Shown here piece after piece: positions 33,794 through 55,945 of a DNA stretch of 64,000 nucleotides (position 1 is the first letter of the stretch; every line of letters starts with the position of its first letter). The DNA lies in contig QHSU01000069.1 in NCBI GenBank assembly GCA_003220535.1, positions 62,001-126,000 of the forward strand, written 5' to 3'. This DNA comes from Candidatus Rokuibacteriota bacterium (GTDB lineage Bacteria; Methylomirabilota; Methylomirabilia; Rokubacteriales; CSP1-6). Below the pieces are notes generated by a model, which had not been told where the DNA came from, did not search any database, and saw only the letters and a program-made list of their open reading frames with translations. The position numbers and the translations under genes are program-made.

Positions 33794-34804
33794 GTGCGGA
33801 TCGGCTTCCACCTCACCCCGTTCTGGAGCCCGACGGACCGCGAGCACACGGCCATCATCGACGAAGCGATCGAGGTCGTGCGAGCGGCGTCCACGATGGG
33901 CTTCGCGTGGGTCTCGATCGGCCACCACTGGGTCTCGCACCCGACCGTCTGGCCGCAGCCGATCCCGATGCTCGCCAGGCTCGCGCCCGAGACCGGCCAG
34001 ATGCGGCTCAAGACGTCGATGCTCCTGCTGCCGCTCCTGAACCCGGTGGACGTCGCGGAGAACGTCGTCACGCTCGACCACATCACGCACGGGCGTCTGG
34101 ATCTCGGCGTCGCGATCGGCTATCGCGAGCGTGAGCTGGAAGCGGCCGGGCTCGGGCGCAAGGACCGCGTGCCCAAGCTCGAGGAGTCGCTCGCGGTGAT
34201 GAAGCGGCTGTGGGCGGGCGAGGAGGTCACCTACGAAGGCACCTATATCAGGATGGCCGGAGCGCGCCTGGGCTTCGGGCCGTGCCAGCGCCCGCACCCG
34301 CCGCTCGAGATGGGCGCCCAGAGCGTGCGTGCGACACAGCGCGCGGCCCGCCTCGTCGACACCGTGTTCTTCGGGCCCCAGGTCGCCTGGGCCGACATCG
34401 GGCGCCTGGTCTCCGTCTATCGAGAGACGCGCGCCACGAACAGGCCGGGAGCCGCCGGCACCGCGATCGCGTCGCGCAGCCTCATCGTCGGTGAGAGCAA
34501 AGAGGCGGCGCACGCGGCGGCGCGCGGCTACCTCGAGCGGACGTTCACGATGTACCGGACGTGGGAGATGCAGGAGCCCGGCATGGTGCAGCTCCAGCTC
34601 GGCTTCGACAAGAACCTCGACGACTGGACGATCAACGGCACGCCGTCCCAGTGTCTGGAGACGATCACGCGAGCGCACCGCATGGGCCTCGACGGCATCG
34701 GCCTCACGATCTACAGCCTGCCGCACGGCGCCGGGGCGCGCATCGAATACCTCCAGATGATCGCCGAGCAGATCGTGCGCCCGGCGGCGGCGCTCGGGCG
34801 CTGA
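33794..34804 (+). CDS. LLM class flavin-dependent oxidoreductase
   Basis: 336 aa; MRIGFHLTPFWSPTDREHTAIIDEAIEVVRAASTMGFAWVSIGHHW...LDHITHGRLDLGVAIGYRERELEAAGL. Confidence 0.92.
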   Translation: MRIGFHLTPFWSPTDREHTAIIDEAIEVVRAASTMGFAWVSIGHHWVSHPTVWPQPIPMLARLAPETGQMRLKTSMLLLPLLNPVDVAENVVTLDHITHGRLDLGVAIGYRERELEAAGLGRKDRVPKLEESLAVMKRLWAGEEVTYEGTYIRMAGARLGFGPCQRPHPPLEMGAQSVRATQRAARLVDTVFFGPQVAWADIGRLVSVYRETRATNRPGAAGTAIASRSLIVGESKEAAHAAARGYLERTFTMYRTWEMQEPGMVQLQLGFDKNLDDWTINGTPSQCLETITRAHRMGLDGIGLTIYSLPHGAGARIEYLQMIAEQIVRPAAALGR

Positions 34805-48092: not shown

Positions 48093-49229
48093 CTACCGCC
48101 GGGTCAGCTCCTCCCGCAGCCGCGCCGCGACGATCGCTTCCTCGCCCGGCTGGAGGTTGATCGGGTCGACGGCGATCTCGTCGAAGTAGCCACCTTGATG
48201 GGCCCCTTGCTGGACGTAGATGTGGGGCTCGCCCTGGGCCAGGGCGACCTGCACCGCGTGGCCGGACGGGCCCGCCCAATCGGGCGTGAAGTAGACGACC
48301 GCGTGCGGGATCACCCGGTTCACGGCGTCGTGCTCGACCACGACGCGGAGCCCCGGCAGGTCGGCGAGCGCCTCGACGATCGTCGCGCAGACGTCGCTGT
48401 AGCGCTTCATCTCGGCCGACTCGTCCTCCGCCATGAAGAGCTCGAGCGCCGTCACCAGGCCGCAGATCTCCTCCTTGGAGGTTTTCGCCGCGCGACCGAG
48501 CGCCTGGTTCGGGCTCGCGTTGAGCGAAGCGGCGCGCACGAGATCGCGGCGCCCGGCCAGAATGCCGGTGCTCTGCGGCCCGCGGATGCCCTTGCCGCCG
48601 CTGAAGCTCACGAGGTCGGCGCCGAGGCGGAGAAACTTCGTCAGGTTCTCGCGCGGCGGCAGCATCGAGGCGGCGTCGACGATGACGGGCACGCCGCGGC
48701 GATGGGCGATCGCGATGACCTGCTCGAGCGAGAGGATGCCGGGCGGGCTCGTGAAGGGCGAGATCAGGTACGCGACCGCCGCCGTCCGATCGGTGATCGC
48801 CTCTTCGAGCTCGAAGGGCTGCGTGCGGCGCGCCAGGCCGATGTCGACGAGCACCCCGCCGGCGACCCGATAGGCCTGGTCGTAGGCGAATCGGTGCGCG
48901 CGCTGGATGACGATCTCAATCCGCATCCCCCGGGTGTCGGGCAGGCGCGTGATCTTCGCCGGATCGTCGCCGGCGATGCACGCCGCGGCCTGTAGGATCA
49001 GGCCCGAGCTCGCGCCCGCGGTCACGAACGCCGCCTCGGCGCCGAGCATGCGCGCGATGGCCGCGCCCGCCGCCGCGTTGAGCTCGTCGAGGTTCACGAG
49101 GACGCGCGACGCTTCGCGCATCGCCTCCAGCGCTTCTGGCCGCAAGAGCGAGCCGCCGTAGCGCGTGGTCGTCCCCGAGCCGTGGATGACAGGGCGGACG
49201 CCGAGCTTTCGGTAGATCTCGGGGATCAT
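48093..49229 (-). CDS. SelA-superfamily PLP-dependent enzyme (aminotransferase class V/ammonia-lyase-like)
   Basis: MIPEIYRKLGVRPVIHGSGTTTRYGGSLLRPEALEAMREA...VPVIVDAASMLPPRENLTKFLRLGADLVSFSGGKGIRGPQSTGILAGRRDL. Confidence 0.85.
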   Translation of the reverse strand: MIPEIYRKLGVRPVIHGSGTTTRYGGSLLRPEALEAMREASRVLVNLDELNAAAGAAIARMLGAEAAFVTAGASSGLILQAAACIAGDDPAKITRLPDTRGMRIEIVIQRAHRFAYDQAYRVAGGVLVDIGLARRTQPFELEEAITDRTAAVAYLISPFTSPPGILSLEQVIAIAHRRGVPVIVDAASMLPPRENLTKFLRLGADLVSFSGGKGIRGPQSTGILAGRRDLVRAASLNASPNQALGRAAKTSKEEICGLVTALELFMAEDESAEMKRYSDVCATIVEALADLPGLRVVVEHDAVNRVIPHAVVYFTPDWAGPSGHAVQVALAQGEPHIYVQQGAHQGGYFDEIAVDPINLQPGEEAIVAARLREELTRR

Positions 49230-50596
49230 GCGAGGCCTTCTTCTTTCATGGCGCGGATCGCAGCCTCGAACGCGGCGAAGGTCTCGGCGAGGATCTCGTC
49301 GGTGTGGCAGGTGCCCACCAGCGCCCGGGCGCCGTTGAAGTCCACGCCGTTCAGGATGAGCGCCTGTCTGAGCGCGCGGCTCTGCTCGGCGTTCTTCGCG
49401 TCGAGCCGCCGCCACTCCACGTCCTGGACGGACTGATCCGATCCATCGCGCGGCGGCGCGCCCGCGCCGAAGAAGATCTTCCAGTCGCTGTGCTCGCCGT
49501 AGATCTTCCAGGCGACCTTTTCGCGCGCGAGGATCTCGTTCATGCCGTGGCGCAGCGTGGCCGCCTGCTGATTGGCGAAGCGGATGGCCTGGCCGTCGGC
49601 CACCGAGGCGAGCATCGCGACGCCGGCGGCGGCCGAGAGCGGATTGGCGTTGAAGGTGCCGGCATGGGCGATCTTGGCGCGGCGATTCGCTTCCGGGTCG
49701 GGCTTGGTCGCGATGTAGCTCAGCACGTCCGCGCGCCCCGCGACGGCGCCTCCGGGGAGGCCGCCACACAGAATCTTCGCGAGCGTCGTCAGGTCGGGTA
49801 TCAGGCCGAGCTTCTCCTGCGCGCCCCCGGGGGCCACCCGGAAGCCGGTGACGACCTCGTCGAAGATCAACAGCGCTCCGACACGCCGCGTTTCCTCGCG
49901 AAGCGCCGCGACGAACGACGCGGGCGTGGGCACGGAGCCGAAATGGCCGCCCGTCGGCTCGATGATCACCGCGGCCACGTCGCCCTTCGCGAGGCGATCG
50001 CGCACCGCGACGATATCGTTGGGCGGCAGCACCGAGACGAGATCGACCACCTCCGGAAGCTGGCCGGCCTCGGGCTCGGCTTCGTAGGGAGGCCGTACGC
50101 CGATCTCGAGCCCTTCGTGCCAGCCGTGGAAGTGGCCCGCGAACTTGACGACGTGCCGCTTGCCGGTGAACGCGCGGGCGAGGCGCACGGCCATGTGTGT
50201 GGCCTCGGTGCCCGACGCCGTGAAGCGCACGCGCTCGGCGCTCGGCACCAGCCGGCAGACCCACTCGCCCCACTCGACCTCTTTCTCGTGGCAGGCACCA
50301 TAGTGGGTGCCGCGGAGCGCCTGCTCGCGCACGGCGTCCGCGACCGGCCGGGGATTGTGCCCGAGCAGCAAGGCCCCGTGCCCCATCCAGTAGTCCACGT
50401 ACCGGTGGCCGTCCACGTCCCACTTGTAGGCGCCGTCCGCGTGGTCCACGTAGAGCGGAAAGGGCTGCATCCGGCGGTTGTCGTGAGTCACCGCGTCCGG
50501 GAAGAGGAGCCGTGCGCGCTCGTACAGCGCGCGCGAGGCGGGCAGGGCGTCAGCGTACATGTCCTGGAGCTTGGGCGAGGTCGTGAGCCGGGCCAT
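49226..50596 (-). CDS. glutamate-1-semialdehyde aminomutase-like class III aminotransferase
   Basis: RYVDYWMGHGALLLGHNPRPVADAV...SGTEATHMAVRLARAFTGKRHVVKFAGHFHGWHEG...LLIFDEVVTGFRV...TTLAKILCGGLPGGAVAGR. Confidence 0.93.
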   Translation of the reverse strand: MARLTTSPKLQDMYADALPASRALYERARLLFPDAVTHDNRRMQPFPLYVDHADGAYKWDVDGHRYVDYWMGHGALLLGHNPRPVADAVREQALRGTHYGACHEKEVEWGEWVCRLVPSAERVRFTASGTEATHMAVRLARAFTGKRHVVKFAGHFHGWHEGLEIGVRPPYEAEPEAGQLPEVVDLVSVLPPNDIVAVRDRLAKGDVAAVIIEPTGGHFGSVPTPASFVAALREETRRVGALLIFDEVVTGFRVAPGGAQEKLGLIPDLTTLAKILCGGLPGGAVAGRADVLSYIATKPDPEANRRAKIAHAGTFNANPLSAAAGVAMLASVADGQAIRFANQQAATLRHGMNEILAREKVAWKIYGEHSDWKIFFGAGAPPRDGSDQSVQDVEWRRLDAKNAEQSRALRQALILNGVDFNGARALVGTCHTDEILAETFAAFEAAIRAMKEEGLA

Positions 50597-53598: not shown

Positions 53599-54108
53599 TC
53601 ACTCGGCCAGGAGCGCGCCGTTCAGCAGGGTGCGACCGGTGACCGGCACCGGGTTCTGGAGCGCCTGCATGACGAAGCAGCCGCGCTCGGCGTTGCGCAC
53701 GACCCTGGCCACGCGCTCGGGCGAGTCGGGCGAATCGATCTCGAGCGTGGTCTCGGCGCCCAGCATCCGGCCCTGGATGGTGTCGTTCAGCACCGAGCCG
53801 TCCACCCGGTAGCGCGCCGTCACGCGCATCCGCATCCCGTTCACCGTGACCTTCAGCATGTGCCCGTACCGGGACACCTGGGTCATCAGTCAGAACGCGA
53901 GCGCGGCACTGAAGTACATGAGCGGCGTGGGCGCCGAGCCGAGACCGCCCAGGTTGGGGCCCTCGTCGCAGGCGAACGTCATGTGGCCCGAGCCACCGCG
54001 GCTGACCGTCGCCAGCTTGAGAAATGGCGTGACCAGGTTGACGTCGGCGTCGAAGACGATCTCGCGGGTCTCGATCTTGGGATTTAGCCCATCGGGCACA
54101 GTGGACAT
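53599..54108 (-). CDS. OsmC-like protein, predicted selenoprotein (TGA at catalytic Cys, 53890-53892)
   Basis: Read-through gives ...PTPLMYFSAALAF[U]LMTQVSRYGHMLKVTV...NAERGCFVMQAL...; same frame both sides; TGA aligns with Cys of the OsmC PLELLLAALGGC motif; C-terminal Cys retained. Confidence 0.85.
53847..53885 (-). promoter_or_regulatory. candidate bacterial SECIS element
   Basis: RNA: UGACC-CAG-GUG-U-CCCG-GUA-CGGG-CAC-AUG-CUG-AA-GGUCA; apical loop GUA starts 20 nt after the UGA; upper stem carries a bulged U. Confidence 0.7.
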
Positions 54109-54117
54109 GATCGCTCC

Positions 54118-54771
54118 TCAGGAACGGCGTAGATTCTCGAGGATCTCCACCGTTCGAGCCGGCTCCGACCGCCGCGTGTAGTCGGGGTCCGCGTCGACGG
54201 CGCGAATGATGCCCTGGCGATCGATCACCAACCGCGCCGGGATGGGAAGCCGCCAGGTGCCGTCACCATTGCCCCGCGCCAGGTCGATGCCGAACTTCAC
54301 GTAGATCTCGCGCAGGTCGTCGGGCAGGGTGAAAACCAGACCATACCGCTCGGCGACCGGATTGCCGGAGTCACGTAGCATCTCGTACGCGAACGGCTTG
54401 GGTTCCTCGGTCTCGCGCGGCGTGCGCGCCACCTGCGGCGAGATGACGGCGAGCGTGGCGCCGGCGGCGGTGATCGCGGGCAGGGCCTGCTGCAGAGCGT
54501 CCAGCTCTGCGTTGCAGTACGGTCACCAGCGGCCGCGGTAGAACGACAGCACGAGCGGCCCGCGGGCCAGCTGCTCCTTGAGGCTGACCGGTCGGCCAGC
54601 GGCGTTGGGCAGCGTGAAGTCCGGCGCCGTCTGGCCCACGCGGGCGACGCGGTTCATGATCCCGGAGGCCCGGAGATCGTCGATGCTGCGCTGCATGACC
54701 GCCCTGGCCTCGGGCGGGATCCGCGTCTTGGAGGCCTCGCGCATGGCGTCGAGCTTTTCCTGAAGCGTCAT
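54118..54771 (-). CDS. peroxiredoxin-like (AhpC/TSA) protein, predicted selenoprotein (TGA at 54523-54525, UxxC)
   Basis: Read-through gives ...APDFTLPNAAGRPVSLKEQLARGPLVLSFYRGRW[U]PYCNAELDALQQALPAITAAGATLAVISPQ...; family motif is SFYRGxWCPYCNxEL; same frame both sides. Confidence 0.9.
54487..54517 (-). promoter_or_regulatory. candidate bacterial SECIS element
   Basis: RNA: CUGC-AAC-GCAGAGC-UGGAC-GCUCUGC-A-GCAG; 7-bp perfect upper stem, apical loop starts 19 nt after UGA. Confidence 0.75.
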
Positions 54772-54855
54772 CGACCCCTCCTTCCGTGAGAGTCGTCTAC
54801 GCGGACCGTACCACATTTTCTTGACCGATCATTCCGAAACTGATACTCGATAGGC

Positions 54856-55437
54856 GTGGCCCGCCCCAGGGAGTTCACGCACGACGTGGTTCTCGACCGG
54901 GCCATGCAGGTCTTCTGGTCGCGGGGGTACGAAGCGACGTCGATCCAGTACCTCGTGGACCGGATGGGCATCCAGCGCGGCAGCCTCTATGGCACGTTCG
55001 GAGACAAGCGGGCGCTCTTCTTCGCCGCCATCGACCGCTACGACCGCGTGGTGACCGCGAAGCTCCTGGCGGCCCTCGACGGGCCGGCGTCGGGAAAGGA
55101 CGCCATCCGCGAGTTCTTCCGGCTCAAGGTCGCGCTGGCCCTGGAGCCGCGCCGCCCCCGCGGATGCCTGGTGACCAATTCGGCGGCCGAGCTCGCCTCG
55201 CGCGATCGCGCGACGGCGACCAGGGTCGGGGCGGTGCTGGCGAAGATCGAGGCCGCCTTCCATCGCGCGGTGGTCCGCGCCCAGACGGCGGGCGAGATCG
55301 ACCGAGCGCGCGACCCTCGGGCCCTGGCGCGGTTCCTGACCAGCAGCGCTCAGGGGCTGTCCGTCATGGCCAAGACCTTCCCCGAGCGCGCCGTCCTGAA
55401 GGACATCGTCCGGGTCGTCCTGGCAGCACTCGAGTGA
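54856..55437 (+). CDS. TetR/AcrR family transcriptional regulator
   Basis: GTG start; ARPREFTHDVVLDRAMQVFWSRGYEATSIQYLVDRMGIQRGSLYGTFGDKRALFFAAI; RPRGCLVTNSAAEL. Confidence 0.93.
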   Translation: MARPREFTHDVVLDRAMQVFWSRGYEATSIQYLVDRMGIQRGSLYGTFGDKRALFFAAIDRYDRVVTAKLLAALDGPASGKDAIREFFRLKVALALEPRRPRGCLVTNSAAELASRDRATATRVGAVLAKIEAAFHRAVVRAQTAGEIDRARDPRALARFLTSSAQGLSVMAKTFPERAVLKDIVRVVLAALE

Positions 55438-55474
55438 GGCGATTCACCCCTTTGACACCGCGAGGAGGTTTTCC

Positions 55475-55945
55475 ATGGGCGAAGTTATCCACGTGACCAG
55501 GGCGCGAGTCGTCAAGGAGCCGGGCCGCGGCATGAAGACGGCCTACCTCGACGCCTTTCCCGACACTCCCGTCCCCTACGGCATCCACGGGGGCATCAAG
55601 AAGTTCTACAAGGCCGAGCCGGAGGTGGAACGGCCCGCCACGCTGGACCATCTCGTGATGGCGGTGGCCGGCTGACTGACCGGCAATATGGGAAGCGCGC
55701 TGGATGCGCGCGGGATCAAGAGCTCACCCGACAACCTCGTCGCGCACGTCGAGGGCATCATCGAGAACGTCGACGGCGTCCCGCTCATCACGACCATCCG
55801 CGTCCGCTACACGTGCAAGATCCCCAAGGGCAAGCGCGCCGAGGCCGAGCGCGCGCTCGGCGTCCACGAGAAGGGCTGCCCGGCCAGCCAGAGTGTCCGG
55901 CGGGGCATCAACGTCGAGTACACCGCGGAGTTCGAGGAGGTGTGA
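55475..55945 (+). CDS. OsmC-like protein, predicted selenoprotein (TGA at 55673-55675)
   Basis: Read-through gives ...ERPATLDHLVMAVAG[U]LTGNMGSALDARGIKSSPDNLVAHVEGIIENVDGVPLITTIRVRYTCKIPKGKRAEAERALGVHEKGCPASQSVRRGINVEYTAEFEEV; TGA replaces the Cys of xLDxLVxAVAGCLTG; RBS gaggagg upstream. Confidence 0.88.
55695..55711 (+). promoter_or_regulatory. candidate bacterial SECIS element
   Basis: GCGCGC-UGGAU-GCGCGC hairpin; apical loop starts 25 nt after UGA; loop resembles UGGAC of the peroxiredoxin-like gene. Confidence 0.65.

Follow-up and report, generated by a model that had tools for sequence, protein, structure and literature searches.

Does the in-frame TGA that divides a peroxiredoxin-like (Prx-like) gene in this Rokubacteria genome end its translation, or is it read as selenocysteine (Sec), and what kind of enzyme would the full-length product be? 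The gene lies in the 64,000-nucleotide stretch of DNA analysed here (the window), which belongs to a MAG of 7.18 Mb in 162 contigs, with 93.8% completeness and 8.2% estimated contamination. This contamination appears unimportant for the finding, since orthologues are present in many other MAGs. The features of the gene are as follows.

54118–54771, minus strand: predicted Prx-like selenoprotein gene, with ATG at 54771, an in-frame TGA at codon 83 and the TGA stop at 54120–54118
54523–54525, minus strand: in-frame TGA of the U-P-Y-C motif (predicted Sec83), shared by 17 Rokubacteria orthologues, with TGC or TGT in its place in homologues
54514–54516, minus strand: codon of Cys86, the second UxxC residue, corresponding to the peroxidatic Cys in true peroxiredoxins and invariant in 22 sequences

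The interval had been given correctly in an earlier note made from the sequence alone, which left the strand unstated; it is the minus strand, and the plus strand of 54118–54771 yields no sensible protein. The standard code splits the frame into two open stretches at codon 83, and a routine gene caller would report two short ORFs there. With the TGA read as Sec, the product comprises 217 residues (MTLQEKLDAM...SFYRGRW-U83-PYC86-N...ENLRRS). The UxxC motif noted earlier, with TGA as the first Cys codon, is indeed read at codon 83 (54525–54523) as SFYRGRW-U-PYCN. The same frame continues past the TGA as claimed, the reported 135 codons being 134 sense codons and the stop. A PF00578 (AhpC/TSA) match spans the TGA (residues 45–191, 92.6 bits against a cut-off of 26, E=2.3e-26), and the two halves around it form a single AhpC/TSA domain.

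Fold and active site of the predicted product

A structure model obtained from 22 sequences has a mean pLDDT of 94, and among solved structures it is closest to BCP/PrxQ, AhpE and 2-Cys peroxiredoxins. In a pairwise alignment to an archaeal BCP (2cx3), the peroxidatic Cys corresponds to Cys86 and the Ser/Thr position to residue 83. Both the fold and this alignment would suit a selenoprotein acting as a bona fide peroxiredoxin, in which Cys86 attacks and Sec83 only resolves. However, the segment R79-G-R-W-U83-P-Y-C86 departs from the Prx signature PxxxTxxC/U: Arg79, which is invariant, stands in place of the Pro, and Sec or Cys at position 83 in place of the Thr/Ser. The two residues of the UxxC pair are also invariant, a feature shared with thiol:disulfide oxidoreductases. 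A bona fide peroxiredoxin is accordingly an unlikely description of this protein. The departure from the signature suggests an active site of the thioredoxin UxxC type, in which Sec83 occupies the first, thioredoxin-type Cys position of CxxC while the peroxidatic position is taken by Cys86. Judged from these residues, the predicted product is peroxiredoxin-like, as the earlier note has it, but not a true peroxiredoxin, and we propose that it functions as a thiol oxidoreductase dependent on Sec and may reduce hydroperoxides.

Conservation of the TGA and selection on the downstream frame

A comparison of 59 genomes from the window's class gave 17 full orthologues, each with TGA at the identical codon and with protein identities of 51–100%; these Rokubacteria belong to several genera. 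A separate GTDB scan detected five Rokubacteria loci with the TGA, which were left out of the orthologue total because, by their SelB scores, they probably come from assemblies already represented among the 17. The TGA also occurs in two proteobacterial MAGs, one from Reyranellaceae (L023) and one gammaproteobacterial (L026), both with approximately 50% identity. A Cys codon (TGC or TGT) occupies that column in homologues from Acetobacteraceae, Pseudomonas, Hymenobacter and others, and neither TAA nor TAG was found at the site among the homologues examined. The alignment to Cys-containing homologues proposed in the earlier note thus places Cys at the TGA column. Arg79, Gly80, Trp82, position 83 and Cys86 are invariant in 22 aligned proteins, with Sec written as Cys. 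The UGA is therefore in frame within a conserved domain and opposite Cys in homologues, as expected of a bacterial selenoprotein.

Pairwise NG86 comparisons of the window gene with six congeneric orthologues (L104–L109, with L106–L108 representing genomes of the same genus only) gave omega values of 0.20–0.44 before the TGA and 0.14–0.23 after it. For more distant orthologues, omega is similar on both sides of the TGA, with dS near saturation. The frame of a further relative (L115, G005:C351) was excluded from the dN/dS analysis and the tree because it runs into the OsmC gene; in that assembly, the Prx-like frame joins the tail of the OsmC gene directly, through a deletion or a misassembly. 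Relaxed selection downstream of the TGA, named in the earlier note as the sign of a wrong reading, is not seen, as close relatives show omega values after the TGA no higher than those before it. A pseudogene or nonsense mutation, in which the TGA stops translation and the remainder decays, would account for the break of the frame into two open stretches under the standard code. Against it speaks that the 17 orthologues, although spread over several genera and down to 51% identical elsewhere, all retain the TGA, that purifying selection is equally strong beyond it, and that none of the homologues examined has TAA or TAG there. We reject this explanation as highly improbable.

About four changes of the Sec label are required on a tree of 39 proteins, at least two of them forced by well-supported branches. 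A Cys clade (Acetobacteraceae, Pseudomonas and a Rhodospirillales MAG) lies inside the same supported group as Sec sequences, indicating that Sec/Cys exchange has occurred, in one direction or the other. A sister Sec group with a UPFC motif and a different hairpin is present in the same family and in Acidobacteriota.

A SECIS-type hairpin follows the TGA

The sequence directly after the TGA reads CCGUA CUGC AAC, followed by GCAGAGC-UGGAC-GCUCUGC-A-GCAG, and forms the following element.

54487–54517, minus strand: SECIS-type hairpin, with the lower stem at 54517–54514/54490–54487, the upper stem at 54510–54504/54498–54492 and the apical loop UGGAC at 54503–54499

The hairpin GCAGAGC-UGGAC-GCUCUGC described earlier was located at 54510–54492. 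The lower stem described with it is present (CTGC at 54517–54514 and GCAG at 54490–54487) but only partly conserved, with 72% of cells paired. The bSECIS model specifies an apical loop of 3–9 nt, a stem of 4–16 bp, a minimum free energy of −7.5 kcal/mol or lower, a G in the first two loop positions and a loop located 16–37 nt after the UGA (PMC13188914). The apical loop begins 19 nt after the UGA with a G in its first two positions, the upper stem has 7 bp, and the fold reaches −17.0 kcal/mol over 36 nt; the hairpin thus agrees with the bSECIS model (PMC13188914). Synonymous-codon resampling with the codon usage of the window's genes gave a mean of −8.2, and 21 of 5000 trials were as stable as the real hairpin. 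This finding indicates that the hairpin is unlikely to have arisen by chance. Bacterial SECIS elements vary widely; an Rfam scan of the 64,000-nt window gave no match at the gathering score, SECIS families included.

Pairing of the upper stem, scored over its eight pairs in 18 TGA orthologues, reaches 97.9% of cells and falls to 24–51% when the partner is slid. One pair is compensatory in this set (C-G in 13 and U-A in 5), and another alternates between A-U and G-U. The C-G to U-A change requires a coordinated Ala-to-Val change plus the codon CTA, which is absent among 161 Leu codons in five genes of the window. The covariation therein appears modest but in register, with double changes at one pair only. 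In the gammaproteobacterial L026, the loop is GUC where the others have GGN, a variant permitted by the G[G/U] rule. The upper stem keeps 7–8 of its 8 pairs in TGA orthologues versus 2–6 in Cys homologues. This clean Sec/Cys split, with the matching hairpin conservation, makes the family a good test case for SECIS prediction.

Selenocysteine machinery and decoding of the TGA

The assembly encodes a tRNA-Sec with the anticodon TCA (69.8 bits, cut-off 47) and gives profile matches to SelA (505 bits), SelB (354 bits) and SelD (335 bits). The SelA and SelB genes lie near each other on contig C107, and that of SelD on contig C1 (G000:C1:110596-111537) has one in-frame TGA, so that the host SelD is probably itself a selenoprotein. 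The Sec system whose absence would have spoken against the earlier note is thus complete. SelB exceeds its cut-off in 56 of the 59 genomes of the window's class and hence does not discriminate within it. Among 16 GTDB genomes with a homologue, SelB exceeds the cut-off in all 7 TGA genomes versus 2 of the 9 Cys genomes (Fisher p = 0.003, a value that ignores kinship, as Rokubacteria account for five of the seven TGA genomes and these are not phylogenetically independent).

Within the window, a PLP-dependent protein (48093–49400, minus strand) has a weak PF03841 (SelA) match at 48411–49136 beside aminotransferase domains; by its domain content it would be a SelA-like paralogue, the real SelA being that on C107. 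Further Prx-like paralogues with one in-frame TGA each, the UPFC group included, are found elsewhere in the assembly (G000:C116:5083-5535 and G000:C136), apparently pointing to a large selenoproteome.

Decoding of the TGA as another residue (Trp under code 4 or Gly under code 25), or generic stop read-through, is hardly plausible. TGA is the normal stop of this gene and of most orthologues, homologues have Cys and neither Trp nor Gly in the column, and a full Sec system is present together with the SECIS-type hairpin; the alternative-code reading was rejected on these grounds. Least plausible of all is a sequencing or assembly error, in which a Cys codon (TGC/TGT) is misread as TGA: the source is a MAG and Cys homologues do exist, but the same TGA recurs in many independent assemblies, some GTDB records coming from other projects, and the TGA genes have the matching hairpin while the Cys homologues are without it, so this explanation was rejected as well.

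Considering these results, the best explanation, to which we assign a probability of about 0.95, is that the gene encodes a Prx-like thiol/selenol oxidoreductase whose UGA at codon 83 would be decoded as Sec via SelB and the hairpin. Sec insertion at this codon appears strongly supported, and the selenoprotein reading of the earlier note gains support from both the unrelaxed selection after the TGA and the complete Sec system. In the proposed mechanism, SelB with Sec-tRNA-Sec would bind the hairpin just past codon 83, and the UGA would be read as selenocysteine to give a thioredoxin-fold protein of 217 residues with the active site U83-P-Y-C86. As the UxxC motif and the fold suggest, Sec83 at the start of the active-site helix may attack a disulfide, a hydroperoxide or another oxidised substrate. 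The intermediate would then be resolved by Cys86 through a selenenylsulfide, from which a cellular reductant would regenerate the enzyme. More tentatively, the OsmC-like selenoprotein encoded in the same direction is its probable partner in organic hydroperoxide or electrophile detoxification, possibly with the divergent TetR regulator in control.

Neighbouring selenoprotein genes

The gene is flanked by two OsmC-family genes and a regulator.

53599–54108, minus strand: predicted OsmC-like selenoprotein gene, next downstream, with a TGA at 53892–53890 (AF-U-LMT) and its own hairpin GTGTCCCG-GTA-CGGGCAC
54856–55437, plus strand: divergent TetR-family regulator (PF00440, PF16925)
55475–55945, plus strand: second OsmC-family gene, behind the TetR gene, with a TGA at 55673–55675 (AVAG-U-LTG) and the hairpin GCGCGC-TGGAT-GCGCGC

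The product of the downstream gene matches NF041052 (OsmC_like_Se) with 166.9 bits against a cut-off of 95, and its TGA, located at the catalytic Cys position, is conserved in congeners. The adjacent pair of Prx-like and OsmC-like genes is found in six congeneric genomes, including that of the window. The product of the second OsmC-family gene has a weak NCBIfam match (TIGR03562); its TGA is kept in the window copy and four congeneric genomes (L104, L105, L109 and L115), and the hairpin is kept in congeners. Both genes are thus probably selenoprotein genes, which would bring the number within approximately 2.4 kb to three.

A scan of the window for TGA read-through frames yielded seven sites, namely these three selenoprotein candidates, the Prx-like gene's own stop at 54120, and sites at 34802, 27610 and 44689. 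The sites at 34802 and 27610 yielded no Pfam domain when read through and were discarded; by eye, the former resembles a junction of adjacent genes.

The position of the two OsmC-family genes next to the Prx-like gene hints at a functional connection that can be tested. It is possible, if rather doubtful, that 53599–55945 constitutes a compact Sec-based redox module of the genus, with the Prx-like and OsmC-like genes co-transcribed and the TetR and second OsmC genes divergent, in which TetR would sense a single class of peroxide or electrophile and the three Sec enzymes would act on it jointly.

Comparison with known selenoproteins

Rokubacteria are members of Methylomirabilota. For one Methylomirabilota MAG, 63 selenoprotein genes have been predicted (PMC13188914), and a selenoprotein-rich Rokubacteria MAG is therefore to be expected. 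Titles and abstracts on Rokubacteria together with selenoproteins or selenocysteine contained no mention of this gene. The GOS survey (PMC2398784) includes OsmC-like selenoproteins with a UxxT motif; it is the downstream neighbour at 53599–54108, and not the Prx-like gene, that belongs to the OsmC-related NF041052, with UxxT as in those proteins. The pairing of OsmC-like and Prx-like Sec genes was not found in the selenoproteome literature compared.

Several other Prx-like families share features with the predicted product. PrxU (NF040737, TxxU) resembles it in the AhpC/TSA fold and the active-site Sec, but the Sec of PrxU is peroxidatic, whereas here Sec precedes the peroxidatic position by three residues and that position is Cys; with 20.6 bits against a cut-off of 270, membership was rejected. 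The SelL-related redox protein (NF040769) shares a distant Prx-like redox fold, and membership was likewise rejected (26.3 bits, cut-off 120). The gene would also resemble PRX_like2 (cd02970), a family described as CxxC Prx-like. The peroxiredoxin-like selenoprotein assigned to cd02970 (Table 1 of PMC13188914) is similarly of the AhpC/TSA family with Sec first in the motif, but has UxxS where the present protein has UxxC.

The sequence instead assigns the gene to an already known kind, the Prx-like UxxC selenoproteins, which were described in 2005 from the Sargasso Sea (PMC1088965), recur in the GOS selenoproteome as "Prx-like protein" or "Prx-like 1" (PMC2398784) and are rated high-confidence in Table 1 of PMC13188914. 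The PF00578 score of 92.6 bits (cut-off 26) and the motif U83-P-Y-C86 place it there. As judged from the published description, the Rokubacteria member shares with the Prx-like UxxC oxidoreductase selenoproteins the PF00578 domain, the UxxC motif, the existence of Cys homologues and a bSECIS directly downstream of the UGA, and differs in its helical N-terminal extension (residues 1–41) and its FYRGxW-U-PYCN core. It would thus represent a well-supported addition to these selenoproteins from an uncultured soil phylum.
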